From Actinocatenispora sera (GTDB lineage: Bacteria; Actinomycetota; Actinomycetes; Mycobacteriales; Micromonosporaceae): DNA of 64,000 bases. Below, piece after piece: positions 32,812 through 36,742 of the stretch (position 1 is the stretch's first letter; every line of letters begins with the position of its first letter). The notes below the pieces were generated by a model that saw only the letters and a program-made list of their open reading frames with translations, made no database searches and was not told the origin of the DNA. Where the stretch lies: NCBI RefSeq assembly GCF_018324685.1, contig NZ_AP023354.1, positions 3,348,001-3,412,000 of the forward strand. The letters run 5' to 3'. Made by a program: the position numbers and the translations under genes.

Positions 32812-33690
32812 TCAGGGCAGTACGGCGAGGTCCAGGCGGGCGAGCCGGTTCGGGTCGGCGATCACCTCGTACTCGGTGATCACGTCGCCGTCGACCCGGA
32901 ACGCCAGCGCGAACCGCAGCCGCCCGCCCGGCGCGACGACCGCGCCGATCCGGCCGTTCACCAGTACCAGCTCGGCCAGCTGGGACCGGCCGGCCAGCGC
33001 CACGGTGCCGCGGGCGACCTGCTGCGCACCCCGGACGACCGCGGCTGCGCCGGGCGGCAGGGCGGCCGGGTCGGAGCGGCGCACCACGTCCGGTGCCAGT
33101 ACGGCGAGGATGCCGCCGAGGTCGCCGCTGCGCGCCGCGGCGAGGAACGCGGCCACCACCCGGCGCTGCCGGGCCAGCTCGTCCGCCGGTACCGCCGTGG
33201 TGCCCCGGACCTTGTGCCGGGCCCGGCTGGCGAGCTTCTTGGTGGCCACCGGGCTGCGCGACACGATCGGCGCGATCTGGTCGAACGGCACCGCGAACAT
33301 GTCGTGCAGCACGAACGCGACCCGTTCGGCGGGCTCCAGCGTGTCCAGCACGATCAGCAGCGCCCGGCTCACCGAGTCGGCCAGCACCGCGGTCTCGGCC
33401 GGCTCGGCGGCCGCGCCGGGCACCTCGTCGAGCTGGCCGGCCTCGGTCGGGTCCTCCGGGCGGGCCCGGCGGGCGCGCAGCACGTCCAGGCAGATCCGGG
33501 TGATCACGGTGCGCAGCCAGCCGCCCAGGTTGTCCACCTCGTCCGCGTCGACCCGGCTCAGCCGCAGCCAGGCCTCCTGCACGGCGTCCTCGGCCGCCGT
33601 CGGCTCGCCCAGCATCCGGTACGCCACGGCCCGCAGCCGGCCGCGTTCCGCCTCGAACCGGGCCGTCAGCCCGTCGTCCGCCACCTGCAC
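32812..33690 (-). CDS. ECF41-type RNA polymerase sigma factor with fused SnoaL-like domain
   Basis: A 292-residue sigma factor. Sigma-2 (about 10-78) includes YRMLGEPTAAEDAVQEAWLR and sigma-4 (about 105-160) includes SRALLIVLDTLEPAERVAFV. The C-terminal 120 residues form the SnoaL-like domain of ECF41 factors, ending in DPNRLARLDL, which corresponds to the NPDKL motif. This fused domain controls sigma activity in place of an anti-sigma factor. GTG 33690 has GGAGG 6-9 nt upstream; GTG 33696 overlaps that site. A matching ECF41-type promoter lies just upstream (listed), implying autoregulation. Confidence 0.9.
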   Translation of the reverse strand: MQVADDGLTARFEAERGRLRAVAYRMLGEPTAAEDAVQEAWLRLSRVDADEVDNLGGWLRTVITRICLDVLRARRARPEDPTEAGQLDEVPGAAAEPAETAVLADSVSRALLIVLDTLEPAERVAFVLHDMFAVPFDQIAPIVSRSPVATKKLASRARHKVRGTTAVPADELARQRRVVAAFLAAARSGDLGGILAVLAPDVVRRSDPAALPPGAAAVVRGAQQVARGTVALAGRSQLAELVLVNGRIGAVVAPGGRLRFALAFRVDGDVITEYEVIADPNRLARLDLAVLP

Positions 33691-33717
33691 GGTCACCTCC
33701 TCCCGTCGTAGCCCGTC
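33691..33717 (+). promoter_or_regulatory. Candidate ECF41-type promoter for azoR
   Basis: GGTCACC (33691-33697), 16 nt and CGTC (33714-33717) resemble the published ECF41 consensus TGTCACA-N16-CGTC at 5 of 7 and 4 of 4 positions. The azoR ATG is 47 nt downstream. Confidence 0.5.
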
Positions 33718-33726
33718 AACCGGAAT

Positions 33727-33753
33727 GACGTACCCGACGCCTCAACGGTGACA
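33727..33753 (-). promoter_or_regulatory. Candidate ECF41-type promoter for the sigma factor gene
   Basis: On the minus strand TGTCACC (33753-33747), exactly 16 nt, then CGTC (33730-33727). It matches the ECF41 consensus TGTCACA-N16-CGTC at 6 of 7 and 4 of 4 positions. The sigma start codon follows about 36 nt later. Confidence 0.65.
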
Positions 33754-33764
33754 GGAGAACCACG

Positions 33765-34472
33765 ATGTCGTTGCTGCACCTCGATTCCAGCGCCAACCGG
33801 TCCGGCGAGTCGATCAGCCGGGAGCTGACCGCCCGGTACGCCGACCGCTGGCGCACCGCGCACCCCACGGCGACGTACCGGTACCGGGATCTCGCCGCTG
33901 ACCCGGTCCCGCCGGTCGGCACCGGCTACTGCACGCTCGGCCGGCGGGTGGAGCGCCGCGGCGGGGTACCGCTGGGTGCGGTCGGCGTGCTCGCCGCCAA
34001 CGCCGACGAGCGGCGCGAGTGGGCGCTGTCGCGGCCACTGATCGACGAGCTGCGCGGCGCCGACACCGTGCTGATCGGCGCACCGATGTACAACCTGTCG
34101 GTACCGGTGGGGCTGAAGGCGTGGATCGACCGGGTCACCTTCCCCGGCGCGTACCTCGATCCGGAGACCGGTGCGCCGCTGCTGCGCGACACCAGGGTGG
34201 TGGTGCTCGGCGCCCGCGGCGGTGCGTACGGGCCGGGCACGCCGCAGGAGGGCAACGACTTCCACACCCCGTACCTGCGGGCCTACTTCGTCCGGCAGGG
34301 GGTCGCGCCGGCGAACCTGCGGTTCGTCAACGCGGAGCTGGCGCTCGCCGATCTCGCTCCGCAGCTGGCGAGTCTTCGCCCGCAGGCCGCGCGCTCGCTC
34401 GCCGCCGCCCGCGCCGCCACCGAGCGGGCCGCCGCCGAGATCGGTACGAGCCTCACCCCGGGGAGCCGGTGA
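33765..34472 (+). CDS. azoR: FMN-dependent NADH-azoreductase (AzoR)
   Basis: A 235-residue flavodoxin-fold oxidoreductase that reduces azo or quinone compounds with NAD(P)H. The start SLLHLDSSANRSGESISREL contains the phosphate loop, APMYNLSVPVGLKAWIDRV (about 105-123) is the FMN-binding signature, and LGARGGAYG lies near 147. The ATG follows AGGAG by 7 nt. It is divergent from the ECF41 sigma gene and preceded by an ECF41-like promoter, matching the known habit of ECF41 genes to neighbour an oxidoreductase. Its 3' end overlaps the TetR gene by 20 nt in convergent orientation. Confidence 0.9.
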   Translation: MSLLHLDSSANRSGESISRELTARYADRWRTAHPTATYRYRDLAADPVPPVGTGYCTLGRRVERRGGVPLGAVGVLAANADERREWALSRPLIDELRGADTVLIGAPMYNLSVPVGLKAWIDRVTFPGAYLDPETGAPLLRDTRVVVLGARGGAYGPGTPQEGNDFHTPYLRAYFVRQGVAPANLRFVNAELALADLAPQLASLRPQAARSLAAARAATERAAAEIGTSLTPGSR

Positions 34473-35115
34473 CCTCGTCGGCGGCGAACGGGAACACGTC
34501 GGCGAGGCCGAGCGGGCGGCCGGGCAGCGGCTCGCCGCCGCCCGTGGCGAGCGCATCCAGGACCAGGCCGAGGCAGCGTTCGGTGAGCAGGTCGCGGTGG
34601 GCCTCGTCGAAGCCCGGCAGCGGGCGGATCGTCATGATCGCCATCGCCAGCACGTCTCCGGCGCCGATGTCGCGCCGCAGGCTGCCCTGTCGCTGCGCGG
34701 CGACGACGAGCTGGTCCAGCAGGTCGAGGATCTCCCGGCGGGCCGCGCTGGCGGCCGGGTCGCGGTGGAAGCTGTCCGGCGCCTCCTCGGCGGAGACCGA
34801 CAGCCGTTGCGACAGCCGCAGGTCCAGTGAGAGCCGGACCACCCGGCGCAGCGCCTGCCAGGGGTCGGACTCCTCGGCCACGGCGGCGCGGGCGGCCGCA
34901 CGGATGCGTTCCAGGTTGTCCAGGCCGACGGCGTGGATCAGCGACGCCCGGTCCGGGAACCGGCGGTACAGGGTGCCGATGCCGCAGCCGGCGCGGCGGG
35001 CGATCTCCTCCATCGGCACGTCCGGGCCGACCTCGGCGAACAGGGTGCGGGCGGCGGCGATGATCTGCTCCCTGTTGCGCCGCGCGTCGGCCCGCATCCG
35101 GATGCCGTCGGTCAT
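34453..35115 (-). CDS. TetR family transcriptional regulator
   Basis: A 220-residue regulator. The N-terminal HTH is RADARRNREQIIAAARTLFA, then MEEIARRAGCGIGTLYRRFP, clearly TetR-type. The C-terminal ligand domain is unlike any I can name. The ATG at 35115 has GGGAGG 7 nt upstream; the in-frame extension to 35346 is a shadow. It is divergent from the P450 gene, which it probably regulates, and convergent with azoR, overlapping it by 20 nt. Confidence 0.9.
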   Translation of the reverse strand: MTDGIRMRADARRNREQIIAAARTLFAEVGPDVPMEEIARRAGCGIGTLYRRFPDRASLIHAVGLDNLERIRAAARAAVAEESDPWQALRRVVRLSLDLRLSQRLSVSAEEAPDSFHRDPAASAARREILDLLDQLVVAAQRQGSLRRDIGAGDVLAMAIMTIRPLPGFDEAHRDLLTERCLGLVLDALATGGGEPLPGRPLGLADVFPFAADEVTGSPG

Positions 35116-35222
35116 CGTCGTCCTCCCACGGTCCGTGTCGCAGCCGGCGCATGGCTCTCGACGCCGGCCCTCGTCGACACGTGCCCGGATTCTCGCACGG
35201 CGGCGCGCCGGAGCGGTGACCT

Positions 35223-35263
35223 GCCATATTTCGCCCAGTTCATGGCGACTATCTGGACGAACT
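35223..35263. promoter_or_regulatory. Possible TetR operator between tetR and P450 genes
   Basis: Two overlapping interrupted inverted repeats: GCCAT (35223) with ATGGC (35242), and AGTTC (35237) with GAACT (35259). This is the AT-richer part of the divergent intergenic region. Arms are short, so this is tentative. Confidence 0.25.
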
Positions 35264-35324
35264 TCCTCCGGTTGTCTACGGTCAAGTGGAAGAAAACCAT
35301 CCAGATCGGCAGATGGGAGAGACC

Positions 35325-36539
35325 GTGGCCACCACACCGGAGACACCCGTTCCTGCTTCGACGTACCCGATCGAGCGAGGCTGCCCGTTCGAACCGTCCG
35401 AACAGCTGGCCCGGTTACGCGGCACCGGGCCGGTCTCCGCCCGGCTGCCCAGCGGCCAGTACGCCTGGCTCGTGGCCCGGCACGCCGACGTCCGGGCAGT
35501 GCTCGGCGACGGCAACCGGTTCAGCGCCGACCGCGGGCACCCCGCGTTCCCGCGACCGTTCGCCGAGGCGCCGACGCAACCGATCCGGCCGCTGTCGCTG
35601 ATCAGCATGGACGGCGCCGCGCACACCGCGGCCCGCCGCCTGGTCGTCGGCGAGTTCACGGTGCGGCGGGCCGAGGCGATGCGGCCGCGCATCCAGCAGA
35701 TCGTGGACGACCGGATCGACGCGATGCTCGCCGCCGACCACCCGGTCGACCTGGTCTCGATGCTGTCGCTGCCGGTGCCCTCGCTGGTGATCTGCGAGCT
35801 GCTCGGCGTCCCGTACGCCGACCACCACTTCTTCCAGCAGCGCAGCGGCATGCTGCTGCGCCGCGACATCGGCGGTGCCGAGCGCAGCACCGCGATGGAC
35901 GAGCTGATGTCCTACCTGGACACCCTGGTCACCGGCAAGGAACGCGATCCCGGCGACGACCTGATCGGCCGCCAGATCGTGCGCCGCCGCGCCACCGGCC
36001 GGTACGCGCGGGACGAGCTGGTGTCGCTCGCGGCGCTGCTGCTGATCGCCGGGCACGAGACCACCGCCAACATGATCTCGCTCGGTACGTTGGCGCTGAT
36101 CGAGCACCCGGCCGAGGCGACCGCGCTGCGCGCCGACCCGGCCCGGATCCCGCTCGCCGTCGAGGAGATGCTGCGGTACTTCACCATCGTCGACTCGGTG
36201 ACCGCGCGGGTGACGACCGAGGAGGTCGAGATCGGCGGCCAGCGGATCGGCCCGGGGGAGGGGGTCGTCGCCGTCGGTTTGTTGGCCGACCACGACCCGG
36301 CCGCGTTCGACCGGCCGGATGAGCTGGACCTCGATCGCGGTGCCCGGCACCACGTCGCGTTCGGGTTCGGCCCGCACCAGTGCCTCGGCCAGAACCTGGC
36401 CCGCGCCGAGCTGGCCGCCGTGTTCGACACCGTACTGCGGCGGCTGCCCGGGCTGCGGCTGGCCGGCGCCGTCGACGAACTGCCGTACAAGGACGACGCC
36501 AGCATCTACGGCATCTACCAGATGCCGGTCGAGTGGTAG
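35325..36539 (+). CDS. Cytochrome P450
   Basis: A 404-residue soluble bacterial P450. GTG 35325 with GGGAG 5 nt upstream gives the usual N-terminus ATTPETPVPASTYPIERGCPF; an in-frame GTG at 35286 lacks a ribosome site. The I-helix reads AGHETTAN, the K-helix has the ExxR pair in EEMLRYF, and the haem loop is FGFGPHQCLG with Cys at about 353. The conserved acid/alcohol pair of the I-helix (E-T) is present. It is probably a CYP105- or CYP107-like hydroxylase, but the substrate is unknown. A ferredoxin gene follows 8 nt later. Confidence 0.93.
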   Translation: MATTPETPVPASTYPIERGCPFEPSEQLARLRGTGPVSARLPSGQYAWLVARHADVRAVLGDGNRFSADRGHPAFPRPFAEAPTQPIRPLSLISMDGAAHTAARRLVVGEFTVRRAEAMRPRIQQIVDDRIDAMLAADHPVDLVSMLSLPVPSLVICELLGVPYADHHFFQQRSGMLLRRDIGGAERSTAMDELMSYLDTLVTGKERDPGDDLIGRQIVRRRATGRYARDELVSLAALLLIAGHETTANMISLGTLALIEHPAEATALRADPARIPLAVEEMLRYFTIVDSVTARVTTEEVEIGGQRIGPGEGVVAVGLLADHDPAAFDRPDELDLDRGARHHVAFGFGPHQCLGQNLARAELAAVFDTVLRRLPGLRLAGAVDELPYKDDASIYGIYQMPVEW

Positions 36540-36547
36540 GGGGCGGC

Positions 36548-36742
36548 ATGCGGATCACCGTGGACCGTGACGTCTGCATCGGCGCCGGCCAGTGCGTCCT
36601 GACCGAGCCGGCGGTGTTCGACCAGGACGACGACGGCGTCGTCCTGGCGCGCCTCGACCGGCCCACCGGCGAGACCGCCGACCGGGTCCGCGAGGCGGTC
36701 GGCCTGTGCCCGTCCGGCGCCCTACGGCTCGACGAGGGCTGA
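36548..36742 (+). CDS. [3Fe-4S]-type ferredoxin, P450 electron donor
   Basis: A 64-residue ferredoxin with three cysteines: Cys10 and Cys16 in CIGAGQC and Cys54 in CPSGAL. The missing fourth cysteine indicates a [3Fe-4S] cluster, as in ferredoxins that serve P450s. The ATG follows GGGGGCGG. It is cotranscribed with the P450 and ends 14 nt before the convergent RSH gene stop. Confidence 0.92.
   Translation: MRITVDRDVCIGAGQCVLTEPAVFDQDDDGVVLARLDRPTGETADRVREAVGLCPSGALRLDEG

Follow-up and report, generated by a model that had tools for sequence, protein, structure and literature searches.

A predicted pair of interlocked, face-to-face ECF41-type promoters between an ECF41-like sigma factor gene and an azoR-like gene in Actinocatenispora sera

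Soil bacteria commonly have sigma factors of the ECF41 type, but tests of the targets of these factors come from few species (PMC3426412, PMC6180224). The group was characterized, and its promoter mapped, by Wecke et al. 2012 (PMC3426412), and the published ECF41 promoter is TGTCACA-N16-CGTC. The factors are described as serving a single local target (PMC3426412), and in those that have been studied the C-terminal domain restrains the sigma core and is viewed as a sensor (PMC3426412, PMC8999054). For 55 loci with a divergent partner, Table 4 of the 2012 study (PMC3426412) counts 36 motifs ahead of the sigma gene and 41 ahead of the partner, and the same paper places Flavodoxin_2 and FMN_red among the ECF41-linked oxidoreductase domains. 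Since divergent motifs and Flavodoxin_2 partners are both on record there, the core of what we describe here is a well-supported case of a known scheme. The passages of Wecke et al. 2012 (PMC3426412) that we consulted hold no discussion of an interlocked spacing of 62-63 bp, of a C at base 7 of the -35 element, or of a link between that base and region 4.2; the fixed interlocked geometry and the clade-level link between a KK dyad and -35 base 7 are the new details of this report.

The window, i.e., the whole stretch of 64,000 nucleotides that was analysed, contains an ECF41-like sigma factor gene divergent from an azoR-like gene. Comparative sequence evidence makes it probable that the DNA between them is an interlocked, face-to-face divergent promoter of the sigma factor, which would drive its own gene and azoR. 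The features are as follows.

33753..33727, minus strand: predicted sigma-ward ECF41-type promoter, with -35 TGTCACC at 33753..33747, a 16-nt spacer and -10 CGTC at 33730..33727
33691..33717, plus strand: predicted azoR-ward ECF41-type promoter, with -35 GGTCACC at 33691-33697, a 16-nt spacer and -10 CGTC at 33714-33717
33718-33726: gap of 9 bp between the facing -10 CGTC boxes, with both predicted start sites inside
~33720-33718, minus strand: predicted start of the sigma transcript, by distance from CGTC
~33724-33726, plus strand: predicted start of the azoR transcript, by distance from CGTC
32812..33696, minus strand: ORF of the ECF41-like sigma factor (sigma2, sigma4, putative SnoaL-like C-terminal part)
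33765..34472, plus strand: azoR-like FMN-dependent NADH azoreductase / quinone reductase (Flavodoxin_2)
33697..33704, minus strand: putative Shine-Dalgarno-like GGGAGGAG of the sigma gene, read from the sequence, adjoining the azoR-ward -35
33753..33757, plus strand: Shine-Dalgarno-like AGGAG of azoR, likewise putative and read from the sequence, touching the sigma-ward -35

The start sites were placed with the help of the distance mapped for S. meliloti RpoE9 (PMC3616915); at about 9 nt past CGTC, as in that case, the sigma transcript would begin near 33718 and that of azoR near 33726. The sigma ORF and azoR are separated by 68 bp, and the motif pair occupies this DNA and a few bases of the sigma ORF; the 63-bp region forms an imperfect inverted repeat. 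An earlier note had described a minus-strand TGTCACC-N16-CGTC and a plus-strand GGTCACC-N16-CGTC within 33691..33753, and its coordinates and both 16-nt counts are exact. The likeness to the published consensus that it pointed to extends to the GTCAC core, the 16-nt spacing and CGTC on both sides, but not to the whole -35 element: both boxes end in C where the published TGTCACA has A, and the azoR-ward box begins with G.

The sigma gene probably starts at GTG 33690 rather than at GTG 33696, because the start codon in relatives mostly comes after GGTGACCG. At 31 of 37 sites with a motif pointing away from the sigma gene (hereafter the away motif, azoR-ward in the window), the TGA inside GTGAC precedes the sigma gene in the reading frame of that gene, so that the sigma start has to be downstream of the motif. 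On the same count we rejected the idea that the azoR-ward motif exists only because it overlaps the sigma start codon. The in-frame TGA is absent at the remaining 6 of 37; L002 and L003, the copies from the genus of the window, are among these six, and in that genus the sigma start is less sure. An open frame of eight codons lies near each predicted start (33725-33751 on the plus strand, 33719-33693 on the minus strand), with its start triplet at the facing -10 and its TGA in the facing -35, as follows from the promoter geometry. Across 36 away sites the sigma-side version of this frame is never interrupted by a stop, and its first residue is M, V or L in 31; however, another frame is nearly as open (a stop in 1 of 36), and we therefore see no clear sign of coding in it. 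Downstream of azoR, at 34453-36742, are a convergent TetR-family gene, whose 3' end overlaps that of azoR by about 20 bp, a cytochrome P450 gene and a small ferredoxin gene.

The sigma factor matches Pfam Sigma70_r2 (E 1.3e-12) and Sigma70_r4_2 (E 1.4e-5; 25.1 bits, just under the cut-off of 25.7), and its C-terminal part reaches 20.8 bits with SnoaL_2 against a cut-off of 27. The best NCBIfam match is SigJ (NF007214), which aligns with residues 10-290 and scores 227.8 against a cut-off of 271, and SigX4 (TIGR02957) scores 204.1 against 323.25. Among solved structures the best relative is SigJ of M. tuberculosis (PDB 5xe7; phmmer E 2.2e-38, residues 12-270). The WLPEP motif, an ECF41 feature (PMC3426412), is not found in the sigma2-sigma4 linker of the window sigma factor, which reads LRARRARPEDPTEAGQLDEVPG, and NPDKL, an ECF41 feature near the C terminus (PMC7730460), is not found near its C terminus; ADPNRL is present in the protein. 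In paralogues of the same genome the linker motif reads WLPEP (L035, L036, L038, L039, L042, L043) or WIPEP (L037, L040, L041), and L035-L043 carry NPDKL or NPEKL. Given that WLPEP and NPDKL are missing from it, we call the window sigma factor ECF41-like, not canonical; the ECF41 label of the earlier note is a loose one. Its modern group may be ECF41, ECF294, ECF295 or another. There is no adjacent anti-sigma gene; the sigma gene's neighbors encode a Flavodoxin_2 and a NUDIX protein.

The azoR product matches Pfam Flavodoxin_2 (E 1.3e-28) and the FMN-dependent NADH-azoreductase of PDB 7awv (E 1.9e-39). With NCBIfam PRK13556 it scores 42.1, below the curated cut-off of 188, and we therefore call it azoreductase-like. 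An oxidoreductase partner was earlier said to fit the ECF41 neighborhood, and it does: Flavodoxin_2 is on the published list (PMC3426412). For the same reason an AzoR-type target is not the unusual one it had been taken for.

Single motifs occur near chance. The exact pattern TGTCAC-N17-CGTC has one match in the window against 0.29 expected, and at least one match in 26 of 100 shuffles; with one mismatch allowed there are four matches against 9.4 expected. The full-genome motif search that had been proposed gave 8 places for this pattern in the window's own genome versus 4 for the reversed pattern. The facing pair is found once in the window, whereas 300 dinucleotide shuffles gave none; analytically, about 9e-6 pairs would be expected per window and about 9e-4 per genome, and the 7.04 Mb genome has it at one place only. 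In 396 genomes of the phylum the pair pattern (with a gap of 8-9 bp) occurs in five, from four genera and at one place each, the window included; the reversed pair pattern has no match in the same 396 genomes. These shuffles and this reversed control reject a chance origin of the facing pair. At all five places an ECF41-like sigma gene follows immediately downstream (tblastn E 4e-53 or lower), and azoR stands opposite the sigma gene at two of them, the window and L134.

For comparison we used 98 non-redundant loci, 18 of them azoR-linked, in which L002 stands for the window. Among their sources were the best 80 of at least 498 relatives matched by six peptide patterns and a class search at E 1e-88 or lower, and they include paralogues from the window's own genome (L032-L043); because of this sampling they are relatives of the window sigma factor and not all ECF41. 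Left out were near-copies (L031, which is the window itself, L051, L069, L104, L105, L119, L128, L133), second fetches (L001, L131, L136, L137, L140-L142), weak own-genome matches (L044-L050), and L134, dropped in favor of L153 from the same place. In a tree of the 98 sigma factors, all 18 azoR-linked ones fall into one group of 29 rows (support 94/76, drawn as an open fork). The azoR label requires five changes on the best tree versus a mean of 16.8 for shuffled labels, and the well-supported branches force two.

Both motifs are exact in 16 of the 18 azoR-linked relatives, the sigma-ward one in 17 and the azoR-ward one in 16. The exceptions are L058, with the sigma-ward motif only, and L066, with neither. 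Their only deviation is one changed -35 position, GTCCC for GTCAC (in both boxes of L066 and in the azoR-ward box of L058), and a relaxed pattern therefore recovers both motifs in 18 of 18. In L066 and L058 (~2900-2990) the in-frame TGA before the sigma gene is lost and the sigma frame is open further upstream. The 80 loci without azoR divide, under the exact pattern, into 10 with both motifs, 13 with the sigma-ward and 11 with the away motif only, and 46 with neither. Matches at E 1e-88 or lower in 394 genomes sampled from the class come from eight loci besides the window, L153 among them; the six that are azoR-linked all have both motifs exact, and the two without azoR have the away motif only.

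The geometry is constant. When the pattern is relaxed, 31 loci carry both motifs, and in every one of them the outer span is 62 bp (22 loci) or 63 bp (9); L149 has a second motif combination at 98 besides the normal span. Rhizobium, Bradyrhizobium and a Terriglobia MAG are represented among these 31 loci, as are a Thermomicrobiales MAG and a Myxococcales MAG if the first base is relaxed. A spacing test on 91 non-redundant loci found [CT]GTC at N17 after KGTCAC in 34 of 60 cases on the sigma-ward side and in 36 of 64 on the away side, and every other offset in the range 8-27 accounts for at most 5 and 4 cases, respectively. From 35 family-search matches we also took 27 azoR homologues (L004-L030) whose fetched 3.6 kb contains no sigma gene of this kind; the pair is found in 0 of 27, with one stray single motif (relaxed -10) within 300 nt. 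Conservation of the DNA upstream of azoR as such was rejected for this reason, and the motif pair tracks this sigma lineage, not azoR. The exact spacing, the conservation and the tie to the sigma lineage also support the proposal, already made in the earlier note, of a sigma factor that drives both azoR and the gene encoding itself.

The divergent partners of away-motif loci were identified one by one with Pfam. Where the partner is not azoR, it is a carboxymuconolactone decarboxylase at eight loci (at L080 with TGTC as -10), a DoxX_2 protein at three (one in the window's own genome), an NmrA/NAD_binding_10 protein at three, all with TGTC as -10, and an Oxidored_FMN protein at two. Single loci have a nitroreductase, a hemerythrin, an MFS protein or a member of the polyketide cyclase family, or, with TGTC as -10, a YkuD protein or a glycosyltransferase. 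The change to TGTC instead of CGTC in the away -10 is seen at L087, L091 and L121, whose divergent partner is of the NmrA/epimerase type. Only a sub-threshold DUF1059 match was found for the divergent gene of L132.

In region 4.2 the sigma factors of the azoR group read (T/A)KKLASRAR, except L061 (KQ) and L132 (RK), and most rows of the other SnoaL-type branches read (T/A)RQLASRAR. The counts that follow are of motif rows, which are not independent events, are uncorrected for relatedness and reflect mostly one split of the tree; relaxed motifs are among them, and L066, L152 and L154 enter with two away matches each. K-first sigma factors go with a -35 base 7 other than A in 18 of 19 sigma-ward and 29 of 29 away rows, and R-first sigma factors with an A in 19 of 22 and 18 of 19. 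The window conforms to this, with C as the last base of both -35 boxes against the A of the published TGTCACA. Exceptions are L065 (KK with A), L067 and L036 (RQ with C), L032 (RQ with G) and the sigma-ward motif of L135 (RQ with C). The KK dyad of region 4.2 may thus contact base 7 of the -35 element.

Could the sigma-ward promoter be the only real one? The GGTCACC before azoR is the reverse complement of AGGTGACC beside the sigma start, and the azoR-ward -35 overlaps the ribosome-binding region of the sigma gene, so that its conservation may be partly translational. On this explanation GGTCACC would be the complement of a ribosome-binding sequence, the CGTC would be luck, and azoR would have its promoter elsewhere. 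We take AGGTGACC to resemble an extended Shine-Dalgarno sequence, which speaks for the explanation, as do its position in relatives, between the Shine-Dalgarno sequence and the start, and the away motif being kept at four loci for which Pfam recognized no divergent gene (L064, L103, L113, L155, of 37 loci with an exact away motif); these partnerless loci also count against a strict rule that ties motif to partner. Against the explanation stands the exact N17 distance to a -10 in 36 of 64 cases versus at most 4 at any other offset. Furthermore, eight loci of the azoR tree group that lack azoR (L034, whose placing is unsure, L059, L061, L064, L068, L075, L150, L155) keep an exact away motif without an exact sigma-ward one, and in six of the eight the divergent gene encodes a DoxX_2, nitroreductase or Oxidored_FMN protein. 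We regard a lone sigma-ward promoter as unlikely. Less likely still, to the point of being very improbable, is that a dimeric repressor or activator uses the inverted arrangement as its operator and that no pair of promoters is present. The imperfect inverted repeat would suit such an operator; the half-elements that stand alone in this position in 24 of 98 loci (13 sigma-ward and 11 away, L058 besides) would not, and each half resembles ECF41 promoters mapped by 5'-RACE (PMC3426412).

A further question is which sigma factor reads the pair. The genome has a dozen ECF41-like paralogues (L032-L043) with 35-54% identity, and with so many relatives cross-recognition is possible; nine of the twelve loci have neither motif, two have the sigma-ward and one the away motif only. 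The paralogue L034 is of the KK type and has only an away motif (L034:1460-1486), before a divergent DoxX_2 gene; since its GGTCACC is identical to the azoR-ward -35, cross-talk with the window sigma factor is possible. The number of paralogues, and the dyad and -35 box of L034, would favor reading of the pair by another ECF41-like sigma factor of the same genome. Against this, the pair travels with the adjacent sigma gene across genera, and the intergenic sites of the own genome stay local. KGTCAC-N17-CGTCA has 12 sites there versus 2 for the reversed pattern, of which GC3-based gene calls, which score antisense shadow ORFs as genes, put 5 in intergenic DNA and 6 inside ORFs, with 1 undecided. 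All five intergenic sites are at three ECF41-like loci, i.e., the window pair, L032 and L034. (If no A is required after TGTCAC-N17-CGTC, there are 8 places, of which we inspected the two that are also among the 12 sites.) The RQ-type paralogue L032 has a motif before its own gene, and a second motif stands 62 nt ahead of a carboxymuconolactone decarboxylase gene that lies close by on the other strand (L032:1431-1457 and L032:2944-2970); the two genes probably form a second local regulon. This local pattern agrees with the view of ECF41 factors as having a single local target (PMC3426412). Reading of the pair by a paralogue therefore seems improbable to us, somewhat more so than a lone sigma-ward promoter.

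We thus prefer the reading in which both promoters belong to the adjacent sigma factor. RNA polymerase with the ECF41-like sigma factor would bind TGTCACC-N16-CGTC and transcribe the sigma gene, and the same holoenzyme at the facing GGTCACC-N16-CGTC would transcribe azoR. As each predicted start site lies beside the -10 of the opposite promoter, only one holoenzyme would be accommodated at a time: with -10 boxes 9 bp apart both open complexes would need the same DNA, and the promoters should therefore exclude each other. The signal may be a small molecule of aromatic or quinone-like nature that acts on the putative SnoaL-like C-terminal part, a guess that derives from the partner enzymes. Release of the sigma core would lead to positive feedback on the sigma gene and to the synthesis of one flavin reductase, which would remove the inducing compound. 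The sequences show the motifs, with their spacing, geometry and conservation, and the tie to this sigma lineage; recognition by the adjacent sigma factor, mutual exclusion, signal and substrate are what we infer.

As a tentative proposal that we consider less likely than not to hold, the interlocked pair could be a regulatory device that splits the holoenzyme between the sigma gene and a detoxifying enzyme and so caps the feedback without an anti-sigma factor. The fixed geometry of 62-63 bp would then reflect constraint rather than ancestry alone, kept from Actinomycetota to Pseudomonadota and Acidobacteriota through changes of partner (azoreductase, carboxymuconolactone decarboxylase, MFS, polyketide cyclase family), and the azoR lineage would have shifted -35 base 7 from A to C together with the KK dyad. 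In the window a promoter pair predicts, on sequence evidence only, the sigma factor, its most obvious target and its self-regulation, and the form of the pair can be recognized across phyla. Two testable ideas follow: the fixed interlocked geometry may be how a sigma factor that has no anti-sigma partner keeps its feedback in check, and the link between the KK dyad and C7 may bear on how many paralogues in one genome keep apart.

Azoreductases are also controlled by the MarR-type quinone regulators YodB and MhqR, which act as repressors; local control of an AzoR-type reductase is common to them and the window, but the window's regulator is a sigma factor. The closest likeness is to ECF41 factors with a divergent COE gene (PMC3426412), which have a SnoaL-like C-terminal part (putative in the window sigma factor), no adjacent anti-sigma gene, an oxidoreductase neighbor, the -35 core TGTCAC with CGTC and a 16-nt spacer and, at many divergent loci, motifs before both genes, whereas the window has C instead of A at -35 base 7 and its sigma factor lacks WLPEP and NPDKL. 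SigJ of Mycobacterium tuberculosis (PDB 5xe7), the best relative both among solved structures and in NCBIfam, has WLPEP in its linker, unlike the window sigma factor, which stays below the NCBIfam cut-off for SigJ. RpoE9 / SMb20029 of S. meliloti has the same promoter type, a start mapped 9 nt past the motif and a single local target; however, it is co-directional with a carboxymuconolactone decarboxylase gene, whereas the window sigma gene is divergent from an azoreductase gene (PMC3616915, PMC6180224). Overlapping divergent promoters, as predicted in the window, are also known from the conjugation switch of pLS20 (PMC4207663), where a genetic switch with DNA looping chooses the promoter, whereas in the window the same sigma factor would serve both.
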